Part shown: positions 3,333-45,537 of the stretch, piece after piece
Layout of the letters: the number at the start of each line of letters is the position of its first letter
Numbering within the stretch: the first letter of the stretch is position 1
NCBI GenBank assembly: GCA_021234155.1
Contig: JAJEKV010000218.1
Location: forward strand, 372,001 to 436,000
Direction: 5' to 3'
DNA: 64,000 bases
DNA from: Isoetes taiwanensis
Lineage: Eukaryota; Streptophyta; Lycopodiopsida; Isoetales; Isoetaceae
Made by a program: the position numbers and the translations under genes
Notes under the pieces: generated by a model
The model's input: only the letters and a program-made list of their open reading frames with translations
Database searches by the model: none
What the model was told of the DNA's origin: nothing

Positions 3333-4324
<992 letters not shown>

Positions 4325-22001: not shown

Positions 22002-22009
22002 GTTCTTAC
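22002..22009. repeat. 8-bp target-site duplication, left
   Basis: GTTCTTAC precedes CAGGGATA and recurs exactly after the right terminus (45,530-45,537). It fits the hAT target preference (T at position 2, A at position 7). Confidence 0.85.
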
Positions 22010-22168
22010 CAGGGATAGGTTCTGTACATACGAAATTATTTTTCTGGACGTATAAAGTCCAAAAATACGTATTTTTAGGTAAAATACGTATTTTTCCCTA
22101 GCCGGCCGGAAAAAAAAAAATTTCGCGTAAGCGAAACTAAAGGTTTTGCTTATGCAAAAAAAAAAAAA
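22010..22168. promoter_or_regulatory. Left terminal inverted repeat and subterminal palindromes
   Basis: Terminal CAGGGATAGGTTC is followed by ACGTATTTTT repeats and by two palindrome-like motifs, TTTCGCGTAAGCGAAAC (22,121-22,137) and TTTTGCTTATGCAAAA (22,144-22,159), and an A-run. Arrays like this usually bind the transposase. The same motif occurs at least six times at the right end. Confidence 0.7.
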
Positions 22169-22170
22169 AC

Positions 22171-23117
22171 CGGCTTGAACTAGTTAAACCTAGCACAAAC
22201 ATCAGCTTCGGTCAATCCCTCCGCTGTCTTATCTGGCCATACGAGGACCTTACAGTCCAAGATGGTACCATATGTCCAGGGAACACAGTAAACAACAAAT
22301 ATACTATTAAACTCCAAACCCAACCAAGCCTTATATTCCAAAGGAATATTAAGTCCAATGTAACTTGGTCTTTAGGGGGACAAGCATTTTTTTTGAAAAA
22401 ACCCGAAACTTATGCAGGGGGAAGTCCCATAAGCCTAATTACCTTAACAATGTAATTCTGTTTTACGGGGTACACTATGAGAATATGGTACATAAAAGCA
22501 ATAGCCTGAATCTATGCTTCTAATTTCATGACAAGATCAGTCGATTTAATCCAACTGAGTTCATAAAAACCTGTCTTTTATTCTTTATTAAGAGAACTAC
22601 ATAGATTAATTTCCGGGTCCACATATCAGGGATTGGGAATGCCTTAATAGACTCAGCCCATGTCTATCATAAGGGCTTTGTAAATGCCCACCCATAAGTC
22701 ATCCAAAGGAACCATTCTTTCCCAAATCTGACTCCGTTTAACATGTAATTTCAGTATATCCTCTTCAGGTCACTGTAACTATTCTGAGATCCTCAAATGG
22801 CAAACAGAATTATTAATGATCAGAAAGATAGGAACAAAATGAGATCTGCTATTTTCATTTCAACTTTCATGACGAGATACATAAGTATTATAGAGACAAA
22901 TATCTTCATATTCAACGTATTCTAAAGCCCAATTTCAGCAAAATAGAGCAAACACCCTGTCTCACATTAAGATGTAAACCATTAAAGAAAAGCAGCACGT
23001 ATATACTGGGTTTAAACCATCTTTGAGTCTGAGAAAATTTGTAAGGCCAGCATACCATACCCATGCTGCCACCTTGCAGAGATAATATGGACCTCTAATT
23101 ATTCAAGTCCCGGATAT
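22171..23117. repeat. 3.3-kb unit 1, first part
   Basis: Near-identical to 39,271-40,218 and 42,593-43,540, starting CGGCTTGAACTA-TTAAACC after an A-run and ending GTCCCGGATATG. The unit is then broken by the captured block (23,118-37,086). I see no gene in it. Confidence 0.9.
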
Positions 23118-23402
23118 GGGTAAAAGCATATAGGTGGGGGTCATTTTTTATGTCAGCGACAGTGGGTGCTTAGGGGGTGCTTTAGGTGATGGCCCTTTTT
23201 TGTTTTTTGAAGGGTCGAAGAATTTGTGAAGGGTTGAAGAACGGTGAAGAACCCGCGAAAGGTTTGGCTGGATCCGAATTCCATCCGAATTGGGAAATTC
23301 GTTGGCCATGTCAGCGATCCGGCTGTAGGGGCTGATTCTCCCGCTCCAATTTGGCGGGCTGAAGCAGCTCCAAGAAAATTTTGAAAATTAGATGGAGAAT
23401 AG

Positions 23403-24588
23403 TTGGCTTACCAAAAACAATTTCGATGCAATTCAATGGATTTGGTTGAAAAATACGCTGCTGAATTTGCAGCACAGTTTGATGGCCAGGATCCAGAAGA
23501 CCTTGTTGCTGCTCTTGGTATTGATCTGGATGAATTCCTCCCAAACTTTCCTGTGCAGCATGAGGTTTCAAATCCACTGGATGCTCATGAAATTGTGGAT
23601 CCATATGCATCTGCAACTGCAAATTTGGTACCTTCATCTCCAGTTTATTTAGTTCCTGAACCCTCTATCACATGCTCTGATGATTGCAAGAAGGTGTGCA
23701 ATTGTGCATCCCCAAATACTGCATGTAGAAGAATTCTAGCAACCAGAAGGAGATTACAAAGGAAGAGAAAGAGAGAGCAAGAGAACTTCGGTCCCCGGGT
23801 TAATAAGGGCAAAGAAAAAGTCACCACCAAAGTAAAACAAAATTGGCCAAGCAAATTGTGGATTTCACCAATAAGGTATGCCGTAATTTGAATTTTGAGG
23901 ATAGAAAAGAGGTTTTGCAAGAAGCGTGAACGCTTCCCGAATATGGTATCATAGGAAATAAAGAATTAAATGTGTACAAGCATGTTGTTAACAATGTGAA
24001 GGAGACTCTTCTTTGCCAAGAAACGTTGCGGGACTCGGGATATCAATCAAGCAAGGTCCTCCACCTTGATGATGGGCGGCCACCGAATGTAGCAATCGTC
24101 TTGCTTTTTGTAAAAGGGTTCTAAACTTGAAAAGAAGGGTTGTATGTTTCTTTGTGGACAAGAGGAGATTGGTCGAGATTGAGGACCTGGTCCATGTTCA
24201 ATAAGAAGTCTAGATCGATAGGCTCTCCGATGAAGACCGAGAAAAGGTATATAACTTTTGGATCTCTAAACCCGCGGTGTCTCCTAATAAAAGGCAAGTC
24301 ATCAAATTAAGGAGACATTTGAATGGGCAGAAAGTATCAAAGCCTTATAACTTGCATGCAATTCACTTCTTGGAAGAATCACAGGTACTTGATGCTTTAT
24401 TTGTTATGAAATTTGGATTTCATTCATCATGGATTGCTTTTTAAAACACAGGTAATGTTTTATAAAAGATTCAAACGTGTATATCCGGACATGAAGATAG
24501 GTTTGAGGTTGTTTGAAACCTTGAAGCCTAAATTTGTTAAAAGGCTCAAGGATAGAGAGACGTGTTGCTGCATCTATCACATGAGAAT
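23403..24588 (+). pseudogene. DDE transposase-like gene, 5' exons (Sola-like?)
   Basis: N-terminal half of the gene continued at 31,415. From Met at 23,403 (or 23,436) it encodes an acidic start (LVEKYAAEFAAQFDGQDPED), a Cys cluster (CSDDCKKVCNCASPNTACRR) and a basic stretch RRRLQRKRKREQEN. The frame then shifts near 23,835 to KQIVDFTNKVCRNLNFEDRK, with a stop at about 23,928, and to NVYKHVVNNVKETLLCQETL. After KPYNLHAIHFLEESQ a plausible intron (about 24,385-24,451) precedes VYPDMKIGLRLFETLKPKFV and CCCIYHMR. The KIGL...LKPKF...C-x-C-x-YH pattern is known from an uncharacterised transposase-like family widespread in invertebrates. Naming it Sola is tentative. The CACTA element starts right after MR. 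Confidence 0.6.
24586..24588. repeat. 3-bp target duplication AAT of the CACTA element
   Basis: AAT precedes CACTACAA and recurs at 31,415-31,417 after TTGTAGTG. Removing the element plus one AAT restores an open frame (HMR then MEFVRQ). Confidence 0.85.
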
Positions 24589-25094
24589 CACTACAAGAGG
24601 ATAGCCTTTTTGTGTCAAGCCCTGCGTCACTACCTTTTAAGGTTCGTCAGATTTGTGTCAGAAGCTTGAAAGTGACACAAATTAATTTGATTGCGTCAAT
24701 ACTTGTGTCAGTATAGTTTTGTCAACAACAACGTCATTTTTGTCACATATTTGCGTCAAAATTTTATTACTTTTTCGTTAGCATTTGTAATGACGATTAC
24801 ATCATGTATTGTGAAAGGATTGTGACAACTCTCTTGCCTCTCTCCTTGACTTTGGAAGGCAATGCTCTTCTGGTAGTATTTTGTCTAGCAAACTAGAGTA
24901 CAAGTCTCATATTTCAATATTATTAGTAGCAACATTGTAACAAAGAATTTAAGAGCATACATACATACTTCAAAAAGCTCGAAAACATTGTTGTTGCTCC
25001 AACCGACTTTATGTTGGAGGTTCAAAATTAGCAAACATGCAAGCAAGGCGAGATATACGTGCATGTGGAAACAATGGGGTTGTTGCCTCATTGT

Positions 25095-25855
25095 GCGGTG
25101 AATTCAAACCTTATCACCATCGTTCTCATTTTCGGGATGTTGAACTGCCGGAAAATAATTTGTAATTGTTTCATGTATTGCATCCCCATCAAGGAAAGTA
25201 TTGTTTGAACTTGATGTTGGAGCTCCATCTAATGATTCATCACTCGAAGACTGGACACGTAAATGTTAGTTGCTTTTATGCTAGGTGATAATTTAAGGAT
25301 CATACAGTATATTTTGAAATTTTGAAGCAATTGTATGACTTCTAATGCTTATCCATCACATTGTATAACTTCTATTTTCATTAGAAGTTTGACAATTTGT
25401 TGGCAAGACGACATTTTTAGATTTGTTGTCATGTAACATAATTGGGCGTCTACTTCTATCTTCTGGCATAATGAACGACACATATTCAATCATTTAAAAT
25501 AATGTGCGAACAAGTAAATTAAATGCTTAGAAGGATATATATGTGTATGTAGCGTACCTCATTTGCTTCCCCTTCAAGTTGATGTTCCTCGTCGCTTTGT
25601 TGGGGTCTATTTCGCCACATACCATATCGTGCCTCGTGTTGCTGTCGCACATGATAAGAACGTGTAGCAGTTCCCCGACAAGTATTGCACCAACAACTTT
25701 CGCGATGACGGTAGAAAGCTTCAACAGGGTTATTTCTAGGTCTTTTCCTGTGCCTTCGACGGAGGGACGAAGAAGATGAAGTTGAAGATGAGCATGCTCG
25801 ACCTGGTAAATAATCCCTTGCACTGCTCGTGTTGCTACCACTGCTATTGTTCATC
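25095..25855 (-). pseudogene. Truncated minus-strand CACTA ORF (possible transposase N-terminus)
   Basis: Two exons on the minus strand. The first (about 25,557-25,855) starts MNNSSGSNTSSARDYLPGRA. It has a Ser run, the basic stretch LRRRHRKRPRNN and a possible zinc site CWCNTCRGTATRSYHVRQQH. The second (about 25,105-25,250, after a GT...AG intron) reads SSDESLDGAPTSSSNNTFLD and GDAIHETITNYFPAVQHPEN before a stop. The pattern (Ser/acidic, short zinc motif) fits N-termini of CACTA transposases, but nothing catalytic follows. Assignment is by context. The rest was probably deleted. Confidence 0.4.
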
Positions 25856-26626
25856 TCAATAATATAACTGTTAAAATGAGAAGACAAGCCATGAGTAGTA
25901 CTAACAAGTGTCCCAAATGCCCAAATTCCAACGATATTGCCAATATGAACAAAAGTTTGCAATCTTACCATGCAATATAACTATCAAAATGAGAAGATAA
26001 CTATGAGTATGCTAGCAAATTTATCAAGCTAAACAATTCCAATAAAAATTTGCCAAAAGAGCCTTGCCAAAATTGGTAACGGTTAAACTTATGGGAGCAA
26101 CAAAATCGACATCACAAAAATGAGCAAAAATCTTATTAAAAATCTCATTATGTCAAAATTCCAACCATATTGTCTAAATACAACAAGAAGAGATAAAGAT
26201 TAAATTTATGGAAGCAACATGACACCATTAAAATTATATTAGCAAGATAAATATCAAACAAAATGAGAAATAACCATATGCATGCCCAAAATGCCAAACT
26301 ATCAAGATACCAATAAATGGTAAAAGTTAAAATTACAAAGTAACCAACCGAAATCATGGAAATTACTCATTGCATGCCAAAATTAATAACTCGAGATTGC
26401 AAGCCAAGAATTGTGGAAACCTGGCGCCAAAAGCTAGCTGATCAATCTCCTGCTTTGTCAATCCCACATCGACCTTTCCTTGTTCTTCTGCTTTGGTCGA
26501 CCTTCTGGTGCATCCTGCGCCTCCGAAGTGCTAACACAGTAAACCCAGTAAGTATTGGTTTTTTTGCTTGAATATCGATTGGCTTAAAAGTTTCCATTTT
26601 GAGATTTTTGAGGTCTGATTGTTGCA

Positions 26627-26923
26627 GTGGCTGGAAGTCGGCAAGACAAACGTAAAGGCAAAGCCCCTGCTTTAAGCAATGGAGATGAAAATGACAGCCA
26701 TGGTGAAGAGAATGGAAGCAACCGAGCAGAAAGAATGGATAACTTTTTTGCCAATATGCCTCAGGAGATTTATGATGATTTTTTTGTGGAAATGGAGAAA
26801 AGATGCTCAGGAGTCTATAAATCAAACAAAAGGAGAAGGAAACTCGTGAAGATCCTCAAGCTCAAGCCAATTCGATGCACAGGTCAGTACAAGTTTTGTT
26901 GTAATTCTTTCTGTAAAGACTGA
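26627..26923 (+). CDS. Unassigned exon-like ORF inside the CACTA element
   Basis: After a good acceptor (GATTGTTGCAG at about 26,627) the frame reads GSRQDKRKGKAPALSNGDEN and DNFFANMPQEIYDDFFVEME, then KSNKRRRKLVKILKLK. It is highly charged, with a basic C-terminal run. I do not recognise it. It may be a captured host exon, since it lies just upstream of the P450 fragment, or part of a CACTA gene. Confidence 0.35.
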   Translation: MAGSRQDKRKGKAPALSNGDENDSHGEENGSNRAERMDNFFANMPQEIYDDFFVEMEKRCSGVYKSNKRRRKLVKILKLKPIRCTGQYKFCCNSFCKD

Positions 26924-27035
26924 ATTTGTGTATGGATTTGTGGGCAACGGATGTGATGCTGAGTGGGTTGATAGGCCCTAAACTTGCTGAATGATTTGTT
27001 CTCAGTATCTTTATCCTGCATTCTTACATGATTGA

Positions 27036-27293
27036 CAAAGCTTGGACCCGGAAGAATTTATGCCGGAACGATTTTTGGCGAGCAAAGGGGGCTTCGATTT
27101 TGATATTCGAGGGTCTGATCTTCGTCTGGCCCCTTTTGGAGCAGGCAGAAGAGTCTGTTCTGGATCCTTGGAATTGCTACTGTGCATCTCTGGCTCGCCC
27201 ATCTCCTTCATAAATTTGACTGGGTCCCTTCCCAATCCAATCCCCCGGATCTGTCTGAAACCCTCAAGCTCTCTTCAAAAACCCTCCCAGAAA
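27036..27293 (+). pseudogene. Cytochrome P450 (CYP78-like) heme-region fragment
   Basis: The frame at 27,042 gives [20 protein letters not shown] and [18 protein letters not shown]. This is the P450 PERF segment and the FGAGRRVC heme-binding loop with its cysteine ligand. After one frameshift, [19 protein letters not shown] and [15 protein letters not shown] follow, the typical end of CYP78A proteins. CYP78 enzymes are plant ER-anchored monooxygenases controlling organ growth. Only the last 80 or so residues are present, with one indel. It lies inside the CACTA element, so it was captured by it. Confidence 0.85.
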
Positions 27294-28489
27294 TCCTGTT
27301 TCTGACTCAGTTTTCCGCAATCCGAACTCTATTTTTTCTGCCTGCTTTAAATTATCCCCATATTATATAGTTTTGTGTCTTGTAGCAGTTTGCCCAGCCC
27401 AAACACAATTTTGCAGCATAGTATATGTACGTTTTGCCATTTTTCATTTTCTTCCCTGTTGCCGGACTCAGCTTACAGTTTTAGTTCTTCAGCAAGCAGC
27501 TTTGTCTTGTTTGAACAGAAAGAAGTTTTGTAATGTGCTTGAAATCGCTTGGCTTTGCTTTCTTTGTAGCCTGTTTTTGAATCAATACTGCAGTTCTGAA
27601 CCTTGCACTCTTCAGTGCAGTTCTTTCGATGTCAGTTCTGATCTAATAATTACATCAAGTAGATCCTGATGTTGAATCAATCGCATCTGCATCAGAAATA
27701 AGAACTGCAAACTTGCCAAACAAAGGGGAATTTCGATTGTATCTTAGGAATTCGGCTGTTTATGCTCAATCATCCTATTTTTCGGCTCAGCTAAACCTTA
27801 TTAGCTCTGGCCCAAATCATTAAACCGAATCCTGTACACCTGTACAGCTGTACACCTGCTCTTTTACCTGTGAAAGCTGGAGCATTTGGGATGTTCTCGA
27901 TCCTCACAGTCCTCTCTGTCAGTTACTTTGGTCAAAAAGGTCTTCCTTTCATAGCTTTCTGTAGCTTTCTGTTCTGTGACTGAAATAAGGGAACTGTTTT
28001 CAACATCCAGTGCTATTGTTGCTCTGTTCTTCTATGTATGGCAGCACCATTGTCTGTTCCGAAAACTTAAACATGAGCTACATGCACAATTTTCTATAGC
28101 CAGACTTACCCTTTTGTCTATAGTTGATTCCTCGCATTATGATCCAACAGCAGGATGCCACCACTGCATTACGATCCAATAATAGTAGGATGTCAATGCA
28201 GCTCTACAAATTTATAATGCTGCATTTGGCCATATCAGAAAGCTTGGGCCTTGCATCATATTGCTGCAGGATGACATTTCTGCCTTTCATTTCTGCCCTT
28301 CAGATTAAACATAATGATATATGGGTTTCTGTCTAACCCATAGCAGATGCGTTGGTTATCAATCTCGCATACCAGCATGAGGTTAGTATAATGTTCACTA
28401 TATTATATTTTTACATTAAGACACCTAATTTGTTTAACATAGATACATTATTTCTTCAAGATTAAGATAGATTTTACTTATCTCATATG

Positions 28490-28730
28490 AGCTTAATTGA
28501 TTTAACGTTGTTTAATAGCATGTTCGTAATTGGTATGATTGTCTTAATTAATTTAACATTGTTTGGTAGCATGTTTTTAATTAGTTTAATTGCTTAATTA
28601 ATTTAACATTTTTTGGTAGCATGTTTGTAACTCGTTTCATTGTCTTAATAATTAATTTCATGTTGTTTGGTAGCATGTTTGTAACTTATTTAACTCGTTT
28701 AATTAATTTAACATTGTTTTGTAGCAATGA
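28490..28730. repeat. Minisatellite in CACTA gene intron
   Basis: About five imperfect copies, period 50-60 bp, of AATTAATTTAACATTGTTTG followed by GTAGCATGTTTGTAA. They lie directly before the first recognisable exon of the TNPA-like gene. Confidence 0.75.
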
Positions 28731-30510
28731 AGCTATGAAGATATTGAAAGCACGTAGGAGGTCAAGTAGCTCAGGAGAAGGAGAAACATCGAGGCAAGGC
28801 AGCAAAGCAAACAAGAAGAAAGGTCATGCCATTACTAGAGGACGTGTTATTTTGAGTGGTTCATCCTCTGATGAGGAGATTCACTCTTCTCATTCTGTGG
28901 ATTCTTCTGACAATGACGAAGATGATCTTAAAGGAGGTCCTGCAGAGGAGATCGAATTATCTTATCGTGTTCAGTTCAAAAAGCTATCAAACTCTGATGT
29001 AACATCTATTTTCCTTAATCTATGTTTTTTTTTTCTTTAGTACTCATCTCTATTTTTCTATCTATGTTATTGTTATATAGTCCATGCTTTTAATGATGTT
29101 ATTTTACTTTTACAGGTTTATAATTACAAAGGGATGCCCTATCTTGATGATGCAGGGAAGGAATTCGTGGAGCAAGCGACAAATGCTATGAAGGCTTATT
29201 GCCACGAAGTAGACAAAACTTGGCGTCAGGTTAAGGAGCGACATCGAGAACGGGCAATAAGGTATATAATTGACAACTTTGGTCATGGATTAAACGAGGG
29301 AGAACTTAACAAATTATTGGCAAAGAGATGGAGACACTACAGGTGATTGATTTCTCTATTTTTTCTATTTTTCATTCCTTTTTCTATTTTTCATTCTCTT
29401 TTCCTTTAATTGGATATTTTTTTGCATTGGTACTTTATTTGGTGCGGGCTGGAAAAGATTGTCGTCCGTTAAAAGTAGGCAAAGACTGTTGGGAACGGTT
29501 CGTTGAGCAATGTGGTCGAGTATACCAACGTCAGAAAGATGCAGCCGCAAGACGAAATACGAGGCAACGCACAGGTTCTGGTGGAGATCCCGGGGGGTGC
29601 ACCTATCATATAGGGGGTACCACATGTGCGTGCAAGGGGTCGCCGAAAACCCCCTTGTATACGCCTTAGAAATCTTCCAAAAACCCCCATTTCAGCCACA
29701 TATTGAACCAGAGTCACCTAAAAAAGGCCCCCTCGGTAAGAGTATATGTATGGTTCAAGTCCAAAATAAACCCTTTTGGGTCACTCACATGAATTGTACG
29801 GCTATAACTATGTGAACCCCCCTTGGTGGAGATGCATCTATTAGATCCAAGTTTGTAAGTATTATTTCTTTTCATATTATTATACAAGATGATTTCTACT
29901 GATTGTTATTTGCTATTGTAATTTTATTGCTTTAATCTTTTGTAGCTTTCTGATTGGGGAAGTTTTCCCGTTGATGATTTGATGCGTAAAATCAAGGAAG
30001 ATGGTGGATATGCTGCATGGAAGAAAAAAATGCTCGAAAAAGGTCACGAAGTACAGAAGGTAAGAAGATTGATAATAATTTCCTTTTATGTTGTTTCATT
30101 TTGATGGTATTCTCTTACAGCATAAAGCCAGTAATTATGTGAAAAGAGCTAGTCATGGGATTGTATTCAAGAAGAAGATGAAAAAGCCTGAAAGAGATGA
30201 AGAAATTTCAAAGAAGCAAGAACCTATTTACCTTGATTTTGAAGAAGAAGAAGAAGAAGAAAGGGTGAGTAACGTTTATTCACAATTATTCTTCCATTGA
30301 ATTTCATGCCTTAAATCGTTGAAGCTGCAACTATAGTTTAAGGATACATAGTTAACTATTTGACTATTTTAGAGAATTGCATGTTTAGAATTTGTAGTAG
30401 TGAAAATAACAACTTTTTGACCATGTACATGTTTTTTAACAGGATAATGAAAATCGAGAAATTACTCGACGTGATAAAAGTCCCTCTTCTCATGAAGATA
30501 ATACAGAGTG
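28725..30510 (+). CDS. TNPA-like CACTA accessory protein (multi-exon, interrupted)
   Basis: Exons at about 28,725-28,998 (RRSSSSGEGETSRQGSKANK, acidic SSSDEE/DSSDNDEDD stretch), 29,116-29,342 (KGMPYLDDAGKEFVEQATNA, HRERAIRYIIDNFGHGLNEG), about 29,460-29,855 (CWERFVEQCGRVYQRQKDAA), 29,946-30,060 and 30,121-30,262 (basic, then EEEEEEER), ending at about 30,510. The order matches plant En/Spm ORF1 (Ptta/En/Spm-type) proteins: DNA-binding, thought to recognise subterminal repeats, acting in the nucleus. The third exon is interrupted by a 235-bp MITE; removing it restores RTGSGGDASIRSKF. Exon edges are my estimate from GT/AG. Confidence 0.6.
29589..29823. mobile_element. MITE (235 bp) with TGGTGGAGAT duplication
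   Basis: Flanked by TGGTGGAGAT at 29,579-29,588 and 29,824-29,833. The ends are GGGGGGTGCAC and (reverse complement) GGGGGGTTCAC. A duplication of 9-10 bp with G-rich termini suggests a Mutator-like MITE. It sits within an exon of the CACTA gene, so it inserted after the CACTA gene was laid down. Excision in silico restores the frame. Confidence 0.75.
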
Positions 30511-31414
30511 ATCAATTGAAGCTATTTTTAGGTTGAAGTTTGAAGTACTGCAAGACTTCACGTATTTTACCCGAACTTAGTATTTGTTTGATGATTTTTA
30601 AATTAGGTAATTGACATTTTAATTGTCGTCGTTCAATGTGACTTTTAATATTGAAGACATTACAAGCTGTTTATCAAGTTTAATGCAATTGCTTTAATTA
30701 TCTCTATTCAATGTGACTTTTATGTTTACTTTACTCACACTAGAATATTGGAAAAAAGGGTATGTATGAATACAGACTGACAAATAAATAAATGTAAACT
30801 TGTCACAAAGAGGAAAATCAAACCAAGACAATGTAGACATAGAATCATTACCAAAATGACGCAACAACTTGCTTAATTTTGTAAAAAAATTGTCACAACG
30901 TTGATATATATGTATGTAAATGAATTAATTGACATGTCTCATATGTACATATATATTGTCATTGCTTTGTTTATGTAATACCATTATTTTGATACAAAGT
31001 GGTTATAAAACTGACACATCATCGTAAATAACTAGCATGAAAGTGAATTATAAAAGCGTCACAATTGTCATATAAAAATGTCAATTTATAAAGAACGTAT
31101 CTGCCAACTAAAATGCACAAATTTGAAATTATTATTGATGCTAATGTGATGTAATATAAGATGCAATTATACAATAATTTGGACATAAACTTGACTCAAA
31201 TGCGACGTAAACTTGCCACTATTATTATCATTGCGTCACGCTTGCGTCAGGTTGGCATGACGCAATAAATGACACAACAGGTGACGCTCGTGTGACATCA
31301 AACCACGACACCTATAGCGTCAAGTTTTTGTCAATTTGTAGGTCTTAAAAAGACACTTAGCGTCAGCTTTTTGGACGCTATACTTGACAAAAAACACCAT
31401 ATCCTGTTGTAGTG
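30511..31414. promoter_or_regulatory. CACTA right subterminal repeat region
   Basis: No gene. From 30,850 it holds at least a dozen copies, in both orientations, of TGCGTCA, TGTGTCA or GACGCAA-like motifs, densest at 31,220-31,390, leading to the terminal CACTACAACAGGATA on the complementary strand. These are candidate binding sites for the TNPA-like protein. Confidence 0.7.
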
Positions 31415-33469
31415 AATGGAGTTCGTGAGGCAGGCATTGAACAAGATGAGACGAGATGTTAGCATTCATGGTGGGAGATGTACTTGTAAGTGTGTTATTT
31501 GTGGTGCAGGCCCAAGATGCGAAGCGTACACTCACACTTTCAACAGTGTGAGTGACATGTGGAGAGTTATGTTGTGTCCAAAGAATGACACAGCAGATTG
31601 GTATAAGTCTAAGTGTTTAAAGATGGAATGTAATGATTGTGGCCTCAAGTCATTCTTGAAATGTCCGAAAGAAAAGCGCAAAACAATGAAGATTGACTGG
31701 AAGAATTTTGAAAAGGTATAGATTGAATTTGTGTCTTGCATTTCTGAAATTTACATTTCTGAAATTTTATATCATTGTAAAGGTGAAAGAAACTTATGTG
31801 AAGGATGTTGGTAAAGGGGGTAAACCCATTGTCAACACGAAGGATGTAATGAAGTTGGTGTATAAGAGCACGTCCTTGCATGAATTCATGGAACATGCTG
31901 ATGCAGTGGTCAAGCAATTCATTCCTCATAACTACACTGCAAGATGGCAAGCAAATCAGTTTAAAGAGTGTTTGCAAACTTTCCCATCCAACACTGTCAT
32001 ATCTGTCATTGATTTTGCTGAAAATTATACTTTCAAGATTCAGCAGGAAATTCAAACATTACATTGGAGGAATGATCAATGTTCGATCCTTGTGCATATC
32101 ACCTACAGGCATGCTAATGATGGTGAACGTCCCAATCTTGAAGTAGGTGGACGGAAGTTGGTGAAAGAGACTCATTTTTATATGTCCGATGATCGAGAGC
32201 ATGATACTTTATTTGTGCAGCATTGCCTCCAAAGACACCACGATGATTTGAGAAATAAAGGTATAAAATTCACAAACCATGTGTTTTGGTCTGACGGGTG
32301 TGCTGCCCAGTTCAAGTCATCCAGGGCTTTTTACTATTTAGGAAGGTTCTATCAGACCAATGGAATCCAGATTGCATGGAATTTCTTTGCTTCTTCCCAT
32401 GGCAAAGGGGAACATGATGGTGCAGGGGCTGTCGTAAAGAGAATACTCACCAGCGAGATGCTTAAGAGGGCGAGCACACCTCTACGGAATGCAGAAGACG
32501 CCGTTAATTTCTTGACTTGGTATTTCACAGTTAAGAGAGGCACAAAGGACAACAATATCATTAGGTAACATTTGTATTTCAATACGCACTTCTCTACTAG
32601 GTTACATCATTTGCTTACTTGTATATTCATGTGCACAGGGTCTTTTGGCTGATAAGAGTAGGTGAAGTGTGCAGAAAGCTTAGGTATGATTGTGATACAT
32701 TGAAGGGAACCAAGAAGATCCACACTATTAGGCCTATCTGTCAAGACAGACCTACCATGGTAGCACATAAGTCCTTGTCTTGCTTTTGTGATAGCTGCTG
32801 GAAAGGTTTATGGAATAGGTGTAAGAATGTGAGGAGGCTGGGATGCTACACATACTCTGAATTGAAGCCCGAGATCATGCAAAAGCATACACCTATCACT
32901 CATGTGCAATACGAGGGAGACAATCAATGGAAGGCAGAAATTGTAGAAGTAGGCGACAACTTTGTCATAAATGCCGAGGTCGGCAATGAAGAGAATGTCG
33001 AATTTTGGATTGTGAAAGCACCTAAGCCTAGACATGTGGTTGAAAATGCATTTAGGGATGAATGGGGCTCTAAGTTCAGCAGGCAAGAGGTCATCCTTAC
33101 AAAAAGCAAATACTACAAATCCATGGGAGATGGAAAATACTTTTTCGCTAAGTCATATGCCCGATGTAAGTTGTTATTCACATCTCGTAACTTGTGCAAA
33201 AGTAGAGCTCCTTCGATTCTTGCGGTGTGAGGGCAACGTGATATGACTTGCCATTGGAGGTGCATGAACACATAATTGATTGCTTACCACCACCGATTCT
33301 GGAAACATTGGCCATTGGTAAGTCGAAATCAAGCAAGAAAGACCGCAAAAGAAAAAAGGACATCCTCAGTCTTTGTGGAGGAAGAAGGTAGTAGCTAGGA
33401 AAAAGATAGTGGCTAGGAAGAAAGTAGTGGCCAGGAAGAATGTAAAGGCAGCCAGGAAGAAAAGGTAGT
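31415..33469 (+). pseudogene. DDE transposase-like gene, 3' exons (Sola-like?)
   Basis: Continuation of the gene broken by the CACTA. Exons: to 31,715 (MEFVRQALNKMRR, C-x-C-x2-C cluster CTCKCVICG, CNDCGLKSFLKC); 31,783-32,564; 32,639-33,165; about 33,203-33,469. The second carries VISVIDFAENYTFKIQQEIQ, WSDGCAAQFKSSRAFYYLGR and ASSHGKGEHDGAGAVVKR. Its D, D and E residues are good candidates for a DDE triad. The third has SCFCDSCW and a conserved-looking domain to KYYKSMGDGKYFFAKSYA. The last needs a +1 shift to read YDLPLEVHEHIIDCLPPP and another to reach a Lys/Arg tail (ARKKVVARK repeats). Introns have GT-AG ends. The family is known to me only as uncharacterised transposase-like proteins. 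Confidence 0.65.
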
Positions 33470-33489
33470 GGTGTATTTGCTGGTCTTGG

Positions 33490-34600: not shown

Positions 34601-34602
34601 TT

Positions 34603-34853
34603 GGGCAAAAGTATGCTGGTGGGTATCAAAAGCAGGCGTCCGGACACATGCTGACAGCACTCATATAGCACCACATATGGCAGCTTGTTTAAGGTGTTAC
34701 TGGTACTAGCACATGGTAATTAGGTAATCAATAGAAATATGTAACAACTCCAACTAATAACAAGTGGAATACTAGGATAGAATAGTACATCCAGGGTGCT
34801 GATCTAAGTGCTGGGGCCGCGTTTTTTTGATACCCACTAGCATACTTTTGCCC
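34603..34853. mobile_element. 251-bp MITE, copy 1 (4-bp TSD ATTT)
   Basis: Terminal inverted repeats of about 28 bp: GGGCAAAAGTATGCTGGTGG and, from the other end, GGGCAAAAGTATGCTAGTGG. The flanks are ATTT on both sides. The copy at 61,523 has the same length and differs at only about five positions, so both moved recently. No coding capacity. The superfamily is not certain; 4-bp duplications fit Sola, Chapaev or Ginger groups. Confidence 0.85.
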
Positions 34854-35600
34854 ATTTGCAATGTAATGTACCATTATTTACTTGTTGTACAAGATGCGCA
34901 GGAAAGAGCAGCCCTTTTCCGTTTTGTTTAATCTTGGTCAAATAAAGAAGAGTTTCAGACTTGTCTCTGTAAAGTCTGTTCATGGTGTGAAATCTATAAA
35001 TATTTCTTTTTCTCTTCTTGTATCGTTGGTTTTACATTTCATAAGGTTTGGACCCATGGTTTCTACCAATGGCGCTTGATTTGCACAAGATCATCTATAT
35101 GTAATATAAAGGTAAGAAGCCTGTTCCTACACATAAAATTAATGGCTGCATCATGAGTTGTATATCTTTTACGCCTCTAAGAATGTATGTTCAATGCGGG
35201 TCTTGTGTTTGAAGCATCACGGAATGAAGTCTTACTTGTAGTGATTGAATCCTTATTTTTATTTGGAGCATCAAAATTGGGATTCCCGCTTTTATGCAAA
35301 CAATTGTGCAGCGAGATAGTATTTTGTTTGAATTTGTGAATCAATTGAATTTGTATATTGACTCTCTTGCTCTTCGAATCCATATTACGCCTTCCAAAGG
35401 AATTTTTTTTGACACAAAAAGGAATTGCTGTGGGAGGAGGTATGTTTCAGAAGAATGTAACTGGAAAAATGTAAACAAAACGTCATACTTAAAAATTTAC
35501 ATGATTAACATGCAGTTTTATCTTTACTGCTTTAAAAACATGCTTCAGGCTTCGGATACTAAGCTTAACAAAAAGACAATTAGAAAATACAACACGTCTA
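34854..35600. other. Gap between MITE and convergent gene
   Basis: About 750 bp of AT-rich sequence with no gene I can support. The plus-strand frame at 35,294-35,608 has no recognisable motif. Confidence 0.5.
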
Positions 35601-37086
35601 TCATTTAAGACGTCTTCTTGCTTTGAACTGCTGCAACGTCATATCCTCGTCTAAATCAGTGTCACTATCTGTATCACTGCCTGCAATGTTAGTGTTAACT
35701 TCATTCTCATGGCCTTCAATATTCACATGTGTTGCTGCAGGTTGTTGTGAAATATCAGGTGCAATATCAGGTGAAATATTGTTGTGCAATATCAGGCCTT
35801 CAACATTCACATGTGCTGCTGCAGGACACTTTTGTACAAGCTGGATTATAGAGGGAATATTATCAGGCAAATTCAGCGTGGGAAACTGAAGGTTCATGCT
35901 GGAAGGTTGGCATTCAACATTCAACATGGGAAACTGAAGGTTCATGCTGGAAGATGGGTACCACAAACTTTGGATTTGGCTGGAGTTCCAAGATTCTGCT
36001 TTTTGGCTAGAATTCCAAGACTCAACTTTTTCACTAGAACTAGCTCCTGCAAATAACATTCATGTTAGCTCTCGAATCTTGAAATGTTAACTATCTTAAC
36101 TAGGTTGTACCTTCAGTTCCAGCTTTGGAAGTGTGTGCCACTGCTTCAGTCACGTGGTCAACAGGTTTAGGGTGTTCCACTAAATCAGTGACAGGATCAT
36201 GGGGGTCATCTTTAGGATCTTCAACATCACGTACATTTGGATCAGCGTCGTCTTTCTGCTGTAAGTGACTCTTTCTCATGGATTTGCCCTTTGCTTTCTT
36301 TGATTTATTTGCTTCACATAGTGGAGCAGGAGGCTTTAAGCGTTTAGGCAATTTCTTACTTCCCAACTTGGTGAGTTTGGTTGCTGCTTCATCCATTGCA
36401 GTAGGTTCTTCTTGAGGTGCTCCGCCATCTGCCTCGGCACTTTCTTGTCCTTCCGTTTCTTTCACTACAACAAAGTACATACTTCAAAGTAGTTAGGAAA
36501 TGAATTATCCACTGCAAAGGTACAAGATATTCAATTTATCTAAGGTTTACAACAATTGCTCTTTTTATTTGGCAGCATGTCATTGAACTCGGACACCAAG
36601 CAAGTGATGAAGAATTTACCATTTGCAGATGTCTGAACAACTTCATTAGCTGCAACAACATTCTTGACAGAGGTCTGAACATCTTCATTGCATGTAACAA
36701 CATTTTTTGTGGCTCTTCTCGCTGGTTTATTAACTCCAACTAAAAAAATACAGTAGAAATTTCTAGCAATTTAAAAACTAAGAAACAAAAAGACAAATAC
36801 ATACCTTTCTTTGGACTGCACATCGAACGAGTTTGAGGCCTCCTGACTTGCAATTTTTTAGGATGACTATAGGTGGAAACTTCATCTTCATTGTCAATAG
36901 AGGCTTCCTTACTACTACTGCCACTAGCATTAGCATTTTTGGCCTGATCTTCCATGTAGTTAGAGTATCCCAACTCCAGATACAGATCTGCAGGAAGTGC
37001 AATTTTGCACACATAACACTGCAAGTTTTCCAAACAAACTTGAAAGCAGAATATGTGATATTGGTGGGCACAAACTAATTGAACAT
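35601..37086 (-). CDS. Partial multi-exon gene with half a RING-like finger
   Basis: Four minus-strand exons join in frame at GT-AG sites: 36,805-37,086, about 36,571-36,739, about 36,113-36,470 and 35,601-36,040. The first starts at the capture breakpoint. It reads CAHQYHIFCFQVCLENLQCY then VCK, the C-x-H-x2-H-x2-C...C-x2-C half of a RING-type zinc finger. Then come Ser/acidic and nuclear-looking basic parts (VRRPQTRSMCSPKK; KKLPKRLKPPAPLCEANKSK), a Ser/Asn region (KVESWNSSQKAESWNSSQ) and an acidic tail DTDSDTDLDEDMTLQQFKAR before the stop. No stop or frameshift interrupts about 420 codons. The N-terminal half, including the other zinc ligands, is missing. Function unknown; RING E3 ligase is only a suggestion. 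Confidence 0.55.
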
Positions 37087-39270
37087 GTCTCGTTCGTATG
37101 CCAAAATCCCAAGAACTCCTAAAATATACTGGACAAAAGAAAAACATTAAGAGGAGAAGCCCGTACCTGCAGCCAATCAATACATCATTAGCCTGATAAG
37201 GGTAAAGATGCAAGGGCCAAAAGGTACCTTAGGCTTCTCGGTTATTAACCGATCACCTAATGTAATCCTTTTGCCCAAATACAAAAACGAACTTAGTATT
37301 TTGACATAAATCATGACAGATGAGAGAGTATAACCACCACTGGGTTCATTTACAGAAGATGACCAAGAAAAGGCCTTTCACATTATAGGTTAAATCTGCC
37401 AAAGGCATCTAGAAGTATACAGCAAAATACGAGGGAACAGTTGAAACAAAATGACCATATAGATTAATCTCTTTCCTACCAATCAGGCAATAACTATACA
37501 ATACCTTCCTACCAACTGGCAAGAACTATAAAATAACTTTTTGCCTTGACCTTAATATACAAGTGGATTCTCAACCGAAATATGAATTACTTTCCTTTGT
37601 AAAAGGGATCACTGCCATACCTGGTTTATGTTGAATTTAGACCCAAGCACATCTTCCTTTTAAGCCGAAATGGGAAACTTCACCATTGCTCTGATATTAC
37701 TGCCTGCCTCCATGTCCACAGCCGTACTTATACTTTCAAAAATCATTGTGAAAAGAGTCTATCAATTTTGGCCTTCCACAGTTTATCACAATGCTCAGTA
37801 TCAGAGTTTAAAAAGCACAAGGAGTAAACTGGATCCAAATCCGAAACTGTACATGTAGATGCTATTTCCTTGTACAACCATGACTCATCACACTGGAGTC
37901 CTGCTTATCAGGGTAGGATGCAAAGACCTATCCATACAGCCATTATATGTGCCCAGGAAAATGCGTCAAGACTGATCCGCTACATTAGCATCATCTGCCG
38001 AAAAGGCATGGGTCAAGCAAAGAATATGTATGAGGGTCGGCCGGATTCCAGACCGCTTTGAACCCTAAATAAGAATGAATATATGACCTATTTTGGCAAA
38101 GCCCTAGTACACGTCATAGAATGCCCAATGGCTGCACTTTTTAAGACGGGTAATTTTCACTGTATGTTCTTAAAAAACCTGAAGTATACAGTAATTTGAT
38201 ACGGCTACAACTTATTGGAGCAGTATATAACTAGACCATGGGTGCTCCACACCCGGCTTCAATAAGAACTGGCAACAATATAAAGGTGAGATATGCCAAC
38301 AATAAGCTTTCATATAAATTGAAACAAACCTCCAATTTAAATCCATCAAAAGATAGTACATTAAGGTGCACAACTAAATGAATCGTGCAAGCTTTTCATA
38401 AAAAAAACCCTACCTCCAACCGTAGAGTGTGGCAACACGATGATTCCTGTTTAAATTTCTGAAATAGGGGTGGCTGGCCCCTACTCATAGCAGGAGCCAA
38501 ACCACACCCTATATATGCCATGCAGCCATTTATAGATGCCATTATAATGCAGGGCACTCTATCCTTAAATCAAGAAGTAATTGTCACAGGCATCTACCAC
38601 TTCCCTGGAGACTAGATGCCAACTAGACATACACATATTTACCTTAAACTTAGAAGTGGTTGTTAAGAACATGCACAAGCTCCGTGGAATGAAACTGAGT
38701 TCCAGTTAATGAACCTGTCATCATACAGCCTGCATTTAAGCCAAGTGGCCTTGTATATCAGCCGAGTGGCAATTATGGCCTTGATGCCAAATGATACATC
38801 AGTAATATTTATGAAAAGCCTGTTATCAACTAGAATAACAATAAGGCTTCAAGCATAGTGACATGCCAAGTGGCAATTGTGGCAGTAATGTTGGATACTG
38901 CATAGTGAGTAATAGAATCCTCAAAGCCACAAATACTTAGATTTGAAGTAATCATCTTCTATGGTCCAATCATAAATTTGGTCAAAGAATTACCTTTAGG
39001 ACCGATTGGGCATTTCGTTTCTGGAATTTATTGATACCTTTTGACAACATAATAAATTCAGGACCTTCCTATTGTACCGAGTCCATAACCCCAGTTCATT
39101 TCAGTATAGAATTTCAAGAAGGACTCGCCTTTTTGAACTCGGACTCTTCATAATTTTCATCATCTGCCAGAAGACATCAAAGCCTTAATATGCAATCAAA
39201 TATGAAACCTTAACCAAGGAAATATGGCAGCACTGATAAGACCAATGCACTGAAGTGTCATAAAAAAAAC
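37087..39270. repeat. 3.3-kb unit 1, second part
   Basis: From TCTCGTTCGTATGCCAAAAT to the A-run at 39,262-39,269. Near-identical to 40,411-42,592 and to 43,740-45,056. A 62-codon frame beginning MGNFTIALILLPASMSTAV recurs in each unit (37,670; 40,999; 44,325). It is flanked by nothing typical of a gene and changes sequence and frame in the third copy, so I do not call it coding. Confidence 0.9.
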
Positions 39271-42200
39271 CGGCTTGAACTATTTAAACCTAGCACAAAA
39301 CATCAGCTTCGGTCAATCCCTCCGCTGCCTTATCTGGCCATACGAGGACCTTACAGTCCAAGATGGTACCATATGTCCAGGGAACACAGTAAACAACAAA
39401 TATACTATTAAACTCCAAACCCAACCAAGCCTTATGTTCCAAAGGAATATTAAGTCCAATGTAACTTGGTCTTTAGGGGGACAAGCATTTTTTTTGAAAA
39501 AACCAAAACTTATGCAGGGGGAAGTCCCATAAGCCTAATTACCTTAACAATGTAATTCTGTTTTACGGGTACACTATGAGAATATGGTACATAAAAGCAA
39601 TAGCCTGAATCTATGCTTCTAATTTCATGACAAGATCAGTCGATTTAATCCAACTGAGTTCATAAAAACCTGTCTTTTATTCTTTATTAAGAGAACTACA
39701 TAGATTAATTTCGGGTCCACATATCAGGGATTGGGAATGCCTTAATAGACTTCGACCCATGTCTATCATAAGGGCTTTGTAAATGCCCACCCATAAGTCA
39801 TCCAAAGGAACCATTCTTTCCCAAATCTGACTCCGTTTAACATGTAATTTCAGTATATCCTCTTCAGGTCACTGTAACTATTCTGAGATCCTCAAATGGC
39901 AAACAGAATTATTAATGATCAGAAAGATAGGAACAAAATGAGATCTGCTATTTTCATTTCAACTTTCATGACGAGATACATAAGTATTATAGAGACAAAT
40001 ATCTTCATATTCAACGTATTCTAAAGCCCAATTTCAGCAAAATAGAGCAAACACCCTGTCTCACATTAAGATGTAAACCATTAAAGAAAAGCAGCACGTA
40101 TATACTGGGTTTAAACCATCTTTGAGTCTGAGAAAATTTGTAAGGCCAGCATACCATACCCATGCTGCCACCTTGCATAGATAATATGGACCTCTAATTA
40201 TTCAAGTCCCGGATATGCCATTCATATGTTAAAGAAATCCAAGGACGAATTAGTTGTTCCTACAATAAAGCATAAACCCAATGGAGCTCTATAGTTATGA
40301 GAAATAGAAAAACATCACCAAAGAGTTTTGGTAGAGGCCACAGCCATATCATACGAGCAGTAATAAACATTTTCTTGTAACCATTTAAATGAACTTCAGT
40401 CTTGCAAGCTCCAGTCTCGTTCGTATGCCAAAATCCCAAGAACTCCTAAAATATACTGGACAAAAGAAAAACATTAAGAGGAGAAGCCCGTACCTGCAGC
40501 CAATCAATACATCATTAGCCTGATAAGGGTAAAGATGCAAGGGCCAAAAGGTACCTTAGGCTTCTCGGTTATTAACCGATCACCTAATGTAATCCTTTTG
40601 CCCAAATACAAAAAAGAACTTAGTATTTTGACATAAATCATGACAGATGAGAGAGTATAACCACCACTGGGTTCATTTACAGAAGATGACCAAGAAAAGG
40701 CCTTTCACATTATAGGTTAAATCTGCCAAAGGCATCTAGAAGTATACAGCAAAATACGAGGGAACAGTTGAAACAAAATGACCATATAGATTAATCTCTT
40801 TCCTACCAATCAGGCAATAACTATACAATACCTTCCTACCAACTGGCAAGAACTATAAAATACCTTTTGCCTTCTGCCTTTAATATACAAGTGGATTCTC
40901 AACCGAAAATATGAATTACTTTCCTTTGTAAAAGGGATCACTGACATACCTGGTTTATGTTGAATTTAGACCCAAGCACATCTTCCTTTTAAGCCGAAAT
41001 GGGAAACTTCACCATTGCTCTGATATTACTGCCTGCCTCCATGTCCACAGCCGTACTTATACTTTCAAAAATCATTGTGAAAAGAGTCTATCAATTTTGG
41101 CCTTCCACAGTTTATCACAATGCTCAGTATCAGAGTTTAAAAAGCACAAGGAGTAAACTGGATCCAAATCCGAAACTGTACATGTAGATGCTATTTCCTT
41201 GTACAACCATGACTCATCACACTGGAGTCCTGCTTATCAGGGTAGGATGCAAAGACCTATCCATACAGCCATTATATGTGCCCAGGAAAATGCGTCAAGA
41301 CTGATCCGCTACATTAGCATCATCTGCCGAAAAGGCATGGGTCAAGCAAAGAATATGTATGAGGGTCGGCGGATTCCGTAATCGCTTTAAACCCTAAATA
41401 AGAATGAATATATGACCTATTTTGGCAAAGCCCTAGTACACGTCATAGAATGCCCAATGGCTGCACTTTTTAAGACGGGTAATTTTCACTGTATGTTCTT
41501 AAAAAACCTGAAGTATACAGTAATTTGATACGGCTACAACTTATTGGAGCAGTATATAACTAGACCATGGGTGCTCCACACCCGGCTTCAATAAGAACTG
41601 GCAACAATATAAAGGTGAGATATGCCAACAATAAGCTTTCATATAAATTGAAACAAACCTCCAATTTAAATCCATCAAAAGATAGTACATTAAGGTGCAC
41701 AACTAAATGAATCGTGCAAGCTTTTCATAAAAAAACCCTACCTCCAACCGTAGAGTGTGGCAACACGATGATTCTGTTTAAATTTCTGAAATAGGGGTGG
41801 CTGGCCCCTACTCATAGCAGGAGCCAAACCACACCCTATATATGCCATGCAGCCATTTATAGATGCCATTATAATGCAGGGCACTCTATCCTTAAATCAA
41901 GAAGTAATTGTCACAGGCATCTACCACTTCCCTGGAGACTAGATGCCAACTAGACATACACATATTTACCTTAAACTTAGAAGTGGTTGTTAAGAACATG
42001 CACAAGCTCCGTGGAATGAAACTGAGTTCCAGTTAATGAACCTGTCATCATACAGCCTGCATTTAAGCCAAGTGGCCTTGTATATCAGCCGAGTGGCAAT
42101 TATGGCCTTGATGCCAAATGATACATCAGTAATATTTATGAAAAGCCTGTTATCAACTAGAATAACAATAAGGCTTCAAGCATAGTGACATGCCAAGTGG

Positions 42201-42592
42201 CAATTGTGGCAGTAATGTTGGATACTGCATAGTGAGTAATAGAATCCTCAAAGCCACAAATACCTAGATTTGAAGTAATCATCTTCTATGGTCCAATCAT
42301 AAATTTGGTCAAAGAATTACCTTTAGGACCGATTGGGCATTTCGTTTCTGGAATTTATTGATACCTTTTGACAACATAATAAATTCAGGACCTTCCTATT
42401 GTACCAGTCATAACCCCAGTTCACGAGTATAGAATTTCAAGAAGGACTCGCCTTTTTGAACTCGGACTCTTCATAATTTTCATCATCTGCCAGAAGACAT
42501 CAAAGCCTTAATATGCAATCAAATATGAAACCTTAACCAAGGAAATATGGCAGCACTGATAAGACCAATGCACAGAAGTGTCATAAAAAAAA
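39271..42592. repeat. 3.3-kb unit 2 (complete)
   Basis: The only complete unit, about 3,322 bp. It begins CGGCTTGAACTATTTAAACC after TCATAAAAAAAAC and ends at the same A-run before unit 3. It differs from its neighbours by scattered single bases and small indels only, so the tandem duplication is recent. It contains the 193 bp (40,219-40,411) that unit 1 lost. No convincing gene on either strand. Confidence 0.9.
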
Positions 42593-45056
42593 CCGGCTTG
42601 AACTATTTAAACCTAGCACAAACATCAGCTTCGGTCAATCCCTCCGCTGTCTTATCTGGCCATAGGAGGACCTTACAGTCCAAGATGGTACCATATGTCC
42701 AGGGAACACAGTAAACAACAAATATACTATTAAACTCCAAACCCAACCAAGCCTTATATTCCAAAGGAATATTAAGTCCAATGTAACTTGGTCTTTAGGG
42801 GGACAAGCATTTTTTTTGAAAAAACCCGAAACTTATGCAGGGGGAAGTCCCATAAGCCTAATTACCTTAACAATGTAATTCTGTTTTACGGGGTACACTA
42901 TGAGAATATGGTACATAAAAGCAATAGCCTGAATCTATGCTTCTAATTTCATGACAAGATCAGTCGATTTAATCCAACTGAGTTCATAAAAACCTGTCTT
43001 TTATTCTTTATTAAGAGAACTACATAGATTAATTTCCGGGTCCACATATCAGGGATTGGGAATGCCTTAATAGACTCAGCCCATGTCTATCATAAGGGCT
43101 TTGTAAATGCCCACCCATAAGTCATCCAAAGGAACCATTCTTTCCCAAATCTGACTCCGTTTAACATGTAATTTCAGTATATCCTCTTCGGGTCATTTGA
43201 AACTATTCGAGATCCTCAAATGGCAAAGCGTAATTATTAATGATCAGAAAGATAGGAACAAAATGAGATCTGCTATTTTCATTTCAACTTTCATGACGAG
43301 ATACATAAGTATTATAGAGACAAATATCTTCATATTCAACGTATTCTAAAGCCCAATTTCAGCAAAATAGAGCAAACACCCTGTCTCACATTAAGATGTA
43401 AACCATTAAAGAAAAGCAGCACGTATATACTGGGTTTAAACCATCTTTGAGTCTGAGAAAATTTGTAAGGCCAGCATACCATACCCATGCTGCCACCTTG
43501 CATAGATAATATGGACCTCTAATTATTCAAGTCCCGGATATGCCATTCATATGTTAAAGCAATCCAAGGACGAATTAGTTGTTCCTACAATAAAGCATAA
43601 ACCCAATGGAGCTCTATAGTTATGAGAAATAGAAAAACATCACCAAAGAGTTTTGGTAGAGGCCACAGCCATATCATACGAGCAGTAATAAACATTTTCT
43701 TGTAACCATTTAAATGAACTTCGGTCTTGCAAGCTCCGGTCCGATTCAGTATGCCAAAATCCCAAGAACTCCTAAAATATCTTGGACAAAAGAAAAACAT
43801 TAAGAGGAGAAGCCCGTACCTGCAGCCAATCAATACATCATTAGCCTGATAAGGGTAAAGATGCAAGGGCCAAAAGGTACCTTAGGCTTCTCGGTTATTA
43901 ACCGATCACCTAATGTAATCCTTTTGCCCAAATACAAAAAAGAACTTAGTATTTTGACATAAATCATGACAGATGAGAGAGTATAACCACCACTGGGTTC
44001 ATTTACAGAAGATGACCAAGAAAAGGCCTTTCACATTATAGGTTAAATCTGCCAAAGGCATCTAGAAGTATACAGCAAAATACGAGGGAACAGTTGAAAC
44101 AAAATGACCATATAGATTAATCTCTTTCCTACCAATCAGGCAATAACTATACAATACCTTCCTACCAATCTGGCAGTAACTATAAAATACCTTTTGCCTT
44201 ACAGCCTTAATATACAAGTGGATTCTCAACCGAAATATGAATTACTTTCCTTTGTAAAAGGGATCACTGCCATACCTGGTTTATGTTGAATTTAGACCCA
44301 AACACATCTTCCTTTTAAGCCGAAATGGGAAACTTCACCATTGCTCACGATATTCTTGCTTTTGCCTCCATGTCCACAGCCGTACTTATACTTTCAAAAA
44401 TCATTGTGAAAAGAGTCTATCAATTTTGGCCTTCCACAGTTTATCACAATGCTCAGTATCAGAGTTTAAAAAGCACAAGGAGTAAACTGGATCCAAATCC
44501 GAAACTGTACATGTAGATGCTATTTCCTTGTACAACCATGACTCATCACACTGGAGTCCTGCTTATCAGGGTAGGATGCAAAGACCTATCCATACAGCCA
44601 TTATATGTGCCCAGGAAAATGCGTCAAGACTGATCCGCTACATTAGCATCATCTGCCGAAAAGGCATGGGTCAAGCAAAGAATATGTATGAGGGTCGGCC
44701 GGATTCCAGACCGCTTTGAACCCTAAATAAGAATGAATATATGACCTATTTTGGCAAAGCCCTAATACACGTCATAGAATGCCCAATGGCTGCACTTTTT
44801 AAGACGGGTAATTTTCACTGTATGTTCTTAAAAAACCTGAAGTATACAGTAATTTGATACGGCTACAACTTATTGGAGCAGTATATAACTAGACCATGGG
44901 TGCTCCACACCCGGCTTCAATAAGAACTGGCAACAATATAAAGGTGAGATATGCCAACAATAAGCTTTCATATAAATTGAAACAAACCTCCAATTTAAAT
45001 CCATCAAAAGATAGTACATTAAGGTGCACAACTAAATGAATCGTGCAAGCTTTTCA
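42593..45056. repeat. 3.3-kb unit 3 (3'-truncated)
   Basis: About 2.46 kb of the unit, stopping at CAAGCTTTTCATAAAA. The right subterminal region of the giant element starts from this A-run. In units 1 and 2 the same A-run continues into CCCTACCTCCAACCG. Confidence 0.9.
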
Positions 45057-45529
45057 TAAAAAAAAAAAAAAAAAACGCTTAAGCGAGACCTTCAGTTTCG
45101 TTTATGCGAAAAAAGTTTCATAAAGTTTAAGCGAAGGTTCCGCTCTGTGAAAGTTCAAAAAAAAAAAAAATTTTTTTCTGGATTTTTTTTTGCGTAACGC
45201 GAAAACTGTTTCGCGTAAGCAAAACAGCTATTTCGCTTACGCAAAAATTTACAAAAAATTAAATAAATAATTTTTTTTTTAATTTTTTTTTTTCAGCGTG
45301 TAAACCTGAAGGATTTAAACTACGGGAAAAAATTTCTTTCTTTCCCTTTCTTTTTTTTTTTTTTTTTTTAAAGTTTCAGGATAGTAGTTTAAACCCTTTA
45401 TGCAAAAAGTTCCCGACGCCGGAATTTTTTTTTACCATATTTTTGACGTATTATACTTCAAATTTGTGCAGTATCATTCGAATAATACGTACTGAGTATA
45501 AAACGTATACAATATTGAACTTATCCCTG
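45057..45529. promoter_or_regulatory. Right terminal inverted repeat and subterminal palindromes
   Basis: Six related motifs: CGCTTAAGCG (45,076), GTTTCGTTTATGCGAAAA (45,095), GTTTAAGCGAAGGTTCCGC (45,125), TGCGTAACGCGAAAACTG (45,191), TTTCGCGTAAGCAAAACAGC (45,209) and TTTCGCTTACGCAAAAA (45,231). They are separated by long A and T runs. The terminus is GAACTTATCCCTG, followed by GTTCTTAC. Likely transposase-binding region. The GTTTAAAC runs are AT-rich palindromes. Confidence 0.7.
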
Positions 45530-45537
45530 GTTCTTAC
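45530..45537. repeat. 8-bp target-site duplication, right
   Basis: GTTCTTAC, identical to 22,002-22,009. Confidence 0.85.

Follow-up and report, generated by a model that had tools for sequence, protein, structure and literature searches.

When a stretch of 23.5 kb is bounded by matching terminal inverted repeats (TIRs) and an 8-bp target site duplication (TSD), did it move as one giant DNA transposon, or was a small element inflated in place? The question is raised by a hAT-like element at positions 22002 to 45537 of a 64-kb window of the Isoetes taiwanensis genome (the window is the whole stretch analysed, positions 372,001 to 436,000 of contig JAJEKV010000218.1, here G000:C46:372001-436000), in which a first-pass annotation, made from the letters of the window alone, saw a very large hAT carrying tandem repeats, gene segments and nested transposons as cargo. 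The genome examined amounts to 1.658 Gb in 1110 contigs. As argued below, the 23.5 kb are very probably a hAT-like miniature inverted-repeat transposable element (MITE) of about 0.6 kb, swollen by successive nested insertions, rather than a transposition unit.

On the left, the TIR CAGGGATAGGTTC starts at 22010; on the right, 45529 is the last base of the inverse of CAGGGATAAGTTC. The element proper, without the TSDs, thus spans 22010-45529 (23,520 bp), and in the window sequence the two copies of the TSD GTTCTTAC occupy 22002-22009 and 45530-45537. This is the sole pair in the 64-kb window that combines a 13-bp TIR (at most one mismatch) with equal 8-bp flanks. The annotation held such ends to be unlikely by chance. 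Because one of ten shuffled windows also yielded such a pair (0, 1, 0, 0, 0, 0, 0, 0, 0 and 0 times), the window evidence on its own is a suggestive but not overwhelming non-chance signal, and it is the empty sites that prove the insertion. The left flank (21806-22009) belongs to a dispersed repeat with 39 other copies among the matches listed, of which ten were fetched. In all ten the element is absent at this site and the TSD is present once, as GTTCTTAC exactly in three and as GTTCTTTC in seven (consensus GTTCTT(A/T)C), and beyond it the paralogues agree with the right flank for another 21 bases, the flank homology stopping near 45558. The empty sites that the annotation had proposed to look for therefore exist as paralogous, not allelic, copies of the flanking repeat. 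Because these paralogues are uninterrupted and contain a single TSD, the locus is a real single insertion, with exactly the ends first annotated, into a dispersed repeat.

The assignment of the ends to the hAT type also stands: the TSD is 8 bp long and the short TIR is of the CAGGG type, CAGGG being typical of hAT elements. Moreover, the genome-wide search for both ends that had been suggested reveals a high-copy family, with 1080 matches to the 22-base left end (at most one mismatch) and 411 to the 25-base right end, and no match for either reversed control. All 39 other right ends among the matches listed end within five bases of 45529, four other left-end places start at 22009/22010, and CAGGGATAGGTTC is the TIR at both ends throughout the family; the two ends in the window are the proper left and right types of a single family. 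The smaller members that the annotation had called for were found, from 400 bp upwards. Members with equal 8-bp flanks measure 400, 458, 464, 626, 626, 852, 2726, 2876, 5195 and 8925 bp, and those with one flank mismatch 664, 1163 and 2016 bp; of these 13 other TSD-bearing members, ten with an exact duplication and three with one mismatch, 11 are no longer than 2.9 kb. The 458- and 464-bp copies share one tandem region and the same TSD and were paired by nearest ends. Identical flanks were read at L010, L022, L025, L026, L027, L033, L034, L036, C919:12899324-12904518 and C907:51398012-51410368, and flanks with one mismatch at L018, L024 and L035.

In the end scan, 11 of the 20 fetched stretches contained no pair with a matching TSD (L021, L023, L029, L030, L031, L032, L036, L037, L038, L039 and L040), so larger or mutated members are under-counted. 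On closer inspection, L036 is the 400-bp member with a perfect TSD, L023 has both ends with unequal flanks, and in L040 a degraded end of the right type stands 0.9 kb away from the left end, a case illustrating that the scan overlooks mutated ends. Inspection by eye of the first 100 listed left and right ends gave 13 pairs that converge over no more than 60 kb. Three were checked for TSDs: the 5195-bp pair on C919 is genuine, and the exact-end pairs on C908 (8,940 bp) and C257 (46,262 bp) are false, their flanks being unequal; the ten remaining candidate pairs span 219-2878 bp. Tandem ends with a TSD on C1034 were rejected as an end duplicated together with its flank after insertion, with a period of 2.38 kb, and C977:539132-548356 (L032, L033), where MITE ends with the same TSD GTCAAGAC occur several times over, resembles such a post-insertion tandem duplication.

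What belongs to this family in the window is small. The left part of the MITE (22010-22155, plus strand), with the TIR and subterminal GCGTAAGCGAAA palindromes, has its left end in common with complete members of 458-1163 bp, and the right part (45076-45529, plus strand) has the TIR that reads inward CAGGGATAAGTTC; between them, plus-strand A-runs at 22156-22169 and 45058-45075 form the left and right boundaries of a nested retroelement. When the ends were joined (22010-22168 plus 45066-45529, 624 bp) and aligned with complete members of 458, 464, 626, 626, 664, 852 and 1163 bp, both ends were similar and the middle, which differs among all members, was weakly so. Because the joined ends match complete members at both ends and in size, the window element looks like a small, non-coding MITE of about 0.6 kb split at its A-run. 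The remaining 22.9 kb or so consist of stacked foreign elements.

The first of these is a retroelement-like array of three direct repeats of about 2.5 kb with two spacers of about 0.87 kb (22170-45057, interrupted at 23118-37086), presumably on the minus strand, to judge from the reverse transcriptase open reading frame (ORF) of a relative. By repeat comparison, and on the same strand, repeat 1 comprises 22170-23117, which is 98.7-98.9% identical to 39262-40217 and 42585-43542, and 37087-38393; repeat 2 lies at 39262-41722 and repeat 3 at 42585-45057. Compared as a 3.3-kb-period repeat (37087-45065, and also 22162-23118), the units are 98.3-98.9% identical. The left start, an A-run followed by CCGGCTTGAAC, recurs in the genome, with unrelated flanks at the four loci read. 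In particular, C1032 carries the same retroelement in a different setting: its two edges are the bases that match 22156 and 45076, the surrounding DNA is unrelated, and it has a 2.35-kb insert of its own. According to the match listings, both outer boundaries lie on one strand, 2.4-14.1 kb apart, on C1074, C1046, C907 and C1079. Because the array has fixed outer boundaries elsewhere, we reject its reading as a satellite made by the hAT element; the tandem repeat is an independent retroelement. The relative (L043, C1040:2257700-2262700) has minus-strand ORFs of 700 and 536 amino acids, the former matching RVT_1 weakly (E = 9.2e-5) and falling short of the curated Pfam cut-off. No Rfam hammerhead ribozyme was found in window positions 22002-45537 or at the loci L002, L007 and L041-L043, Rfam yielding three sub-threshold matches in the window element and none at these five loci. 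The array appears to be a long-direct-repeat retroelement, which may be either Penelope-like or of the long terminal repeat (LTR) kind. Separately, C941:14265524-14274637 contains at least four tandem units of the retroelement at a spacing of about 2.98 kb, with the match continuing through a longer A-run in the last unit only.

The nested transposons reported in the annotation are present. Among them is a DDE-transposase-like DNA transposon in the first direct repeat (23118-37086, plus strand), whose left end GGGTAAAAGCATATAGG at 23118 also occurs on C1079 in different DNA, with 100% identity over 92 bp; its right end is not seen because 197 bp of the host repeat are gone at the 37086 side. 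Transposase-like gene pieces lie on the plus strand at 31416-33227 (ORFs 31416-31718, 31690-32565 and 32601-33227). The region 31780-32568 has 180 matches in its own genome (146 of 9283 first-look candidates scored), the best other copies being 97-99% identical. The gene gave no Pfam transposase above the cut-off and no PDB match, a text search for transposase motifs turned up nothing of relevance, and an AlphaFold2 model of the ORF, with a predicted local distance difference test score (pLDDT) of 36, is unusable. The clearest of the gene segments once taken for cargo is a transposase-like gene of another abundant transposon family. Within this transposon, a CACTA (EnSpm)-like element with the termini CACTACAAGAGGATA and TATCCTGTTGTAGTG (24589-31414, plus strand), flanked by the 3-bp TSD AAT at 24586-24588 and 31415-31417, lies upstream of the main transposase-like ORF, and a 251-bp MITE (34603-34853; TIR GGGCAAAAGTATGCT, 4-bp TSD ATTT) lies beyond it; a 98% identical copy of the latter, with the TSD TACG, is found at 61523-61773. 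Further ORFs are present within the CACTA element and at 34858-37086.

These boundaries suggest the following history. First, a non-autonomous hAT-like MITE of about 0.6 kb entered the dispersed repeat and made the 8-bp TSD, as the ends, the duplication and the empty sites show; the transposase that moved it was probably supplied in trans by large relatives, of which the 12.4-kb element on C907 described below is an example. The long-direct-repeat retroelement would then have entered the A-run within the MITE; its boundaries are seen in other DNA, and the order is our reconstruction. Next, the DDE-transposase-like transposon, the left end of which is likewise seen in other DNA, would have entered the first repeat of the retroelement, and finally the CACTA element and the MITE with the 4-bp TSD, both recognisable from TIR and TSD, would have entered that transposon. 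The relative ages point in the same direction. Of 125 sites at the right end of the MITE, 6 depart from the family consensus (3 of them private), against 2-8 in other copies; the internal repeats of the retroelement show 17, 23 and 30 pairwise differences over about 1307 sites in the 1.3-kb part compared. The retroelement thus looks younger than the MITE, which fits late loading and suggests it weakly.

The strongest competitor is a giant element of hAT type whose whole 23.5 kb, or at least a retroelement-loaded part of 9 kb, transposed as a single unit. In its favour are the intact TIRs and perfect TSD across 23.5 kb, the existence of large family members, one of them 12,357 bp long with a hAT domain, and another MITE in which a related retroelement occupies a comparable place. 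We nevertheless consider it improbable. A giant DNA transposon should occur as a large unit in more than one copy at different sites, and neither junction between MITE and retroelement recurs as the same composite at high identity outside the window among the best 40 candidates scored per side (of 2455 for the left junction and 219 for the right). The internal blocks have separate boundaries or TSDs of their own, 1.6 kb sampled from a large relative has no match in the window, and the retroelement is apparently younger than the MITE. The proposal that the window copy is itself a giant cargo-carrying element is accordingly not borne out: its core is the MITE, and a second composite was not seen among the candidates scored.

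The second MITE deserves closer attention. On C1045 (L037, expected TSD ACTTGACC), the same MITE left end is combined with a diverged retroelement, with the left junction matched at 80-82%, an A-run that is similar but not identical, and no right end within 13.2 kb. Independent insertion into A-rich MITE interiors would explain this look-alike. Apart from this question, the same locus contains, about 8.4 kb inward of the left end, a plus-strand ORF of 240 amino acids (8573-9292 of L037, C1045:31375822-31376541) with an N6_N4_Mtase domain (PF01555, E = 3.3e-14), a kind of DNA methylase that is unusual in a plant-like nuclear genome.

Several points weigh against a MITE swollen in place. The C1045 member, with a retroelement about 80% identical near its left end, can also be read as the descendant of a shared, already loaded ancestor. 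The MITE-first order draws on parsimony and on the divergence estimated over 125 bp, a value usual for the family, and gene conversion could keep the internal repeats alike. The second composite was sought in best-40 candidate sets. Finally, large units of the family do exist, of 5,195 and 8,925 bp with TSDs and of 12,357 bp, so size alone cannot rule out transposition as a unit.

The largest of these units came to light through its transposase. All 150 scored candidates for the Dimer_Tnp_hAT profile (the best 150 of 1150) passed the cut-off; compared by eye, none of the scored domains lies within 10 kb of the first 100 listed left ends. One of them, C907:51400510-51400710 (E = 4.9e-7), has one of the listed right ends, at 51398012, 2.5 kb away; the outer flank of that end is ACCAGTAA. 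A search for a left end joined to ACCAGTAA gave a single exact match, correctly oriented, at C907:51410356-51410376; eight further matches had two mismatches and lay on other contigs. C907:51398012-51410368 is thus a 12,357-bp element with the family ends, equal 8-bp TSDs ACCAGTAA and an internal hAT domain. It answers the annotation's call to look for a transposase between such ends and is a candidate autonomous hAT of 12.4 kb. The domain may belong to another hAT nested inside. The 9.7 kb that separate the transposase from the left end may likewise contain nested insertions; no left end occurs in the first 1.6 kb past the domain. This 1.6-kb region (L065) has 211 genome matches, with the best 40 candidates scored, and a same-strand family right end precedes it by 2688 bp on C907 and by 2926, 2913, 2942, 2936, 3168, 2881, 2903 and 2898 bp on C1082, C1075, C1069, C1019, C1047, C1054, C645 and C919, respectively, nine loci versus about 0.02 chance neighbours expected within 3.2 kb. 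On C908, C935, C1100 and C956 the right end lies 6.2-17.9 kb before the L065-like region; on C956 an exact left end follows 10.0 kb beyond, for a putative span of 27.9 kb. Three other hAT domains have no family end in the 601 bp downstream. The C907 element and the recurrent right-end spacing at nine loci indicate that the family has large, repeated, transposase-bearing members. Nothing in the window matches L065, which leaves no ground for counting the window copy among them; the idea of a class of large elements with these ends draws its support from C907 and its sisters, not from the window copy. Tentatively, and with somewhat less than even confidence, one might go further and envisage a class of hATs of about 12-13 kb (perhaps up to 28 kb, as on C956) that move as units with a transposase and many kilobases of other DNA, the 0.6-kb MITEs being their deletion derivatives and loaded MITEs perhaps still being mobilised.

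Still less plausible than the giant unit is a Pack-type hAT, the interior of which was captured during transposition by gap repair or template switching at A-runs. The A-runs flanking the interior would suit microhomology joining; however, the interior is not a random genomic or genic slice but a repeat element whose outer boundaries are those of copies elsewhere, and its ends coincide on both sides with those of the independent C1032 copy. That the two ends come from different insertions and match by chance, as in the one shuffled window, or belong to separate elements, is refuted by the ten empty paralogues that run on with one TSD into the right flank and by the family types of the ends, and we give it practically no credence.

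Elsewhere in the window, an ORF for a reverse transcriptase (RVT_1, E = 3.9e-31) occupies 1006-2403 and opens with a long TC repeat; a second TC tract lies at 3336-3464. Positions 5210-6447 and 13476-14845 are duplicates (96-99% identical) about 8.3 kb apart, with a pyrimidine-rich tract between them at about 11.6-13.3 kb, and a Helitron_like_N domain (62682-63083, E = 6.2e-28) adjoins a GC-rich region at 56-62 kb.

What looks like a giant transposon, its ends and TSD perfect, can turn out to be a MITE inflated by nesting, which calls for caution in annotating large TIR elements, and a candidate autonomous hAT with the same termini makes the source of the MITE family testable. Among known systems, the closest to the window MITE are plant non-autonomous hATs and hAT MITEs of the Ds type (PMC3260210, PMC7385995), which share the 8-bp TSD, the CAGGG-type TIR, palindrome-rich subterminal DNA, a short non-coding core and high copy number; unlike them, the family described here has an extremely variable interior. 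The passages of PMC6431247 examined contain no occurrence of hAT. The array shares with Penelope-like and tandem LTR retrotransposons the long direct repeats, the head-to-tail arrangement and, in its relative, the minus-strand reverse transcriptase ORF, but differs in the sub-threshold RVT_1 match, the hammerhead not found, outer ends without the canonical TG...CA and A-runs at both boundaries. Pack-TYPE elements (PMC8903248) resemble the window element in that a longer interior is enclosed by the TIR and TSD of a DNA transposon that is non-autonomous; by contrast, the blocks recognised here within the interior are other mobile elements that have boundaries of their own, not captured host coding DNA. 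Finally, whereas Ac measures 4.6 kb according to PMC3260210, the transposase-bearing relative on C907 reaches 12.4 kb.

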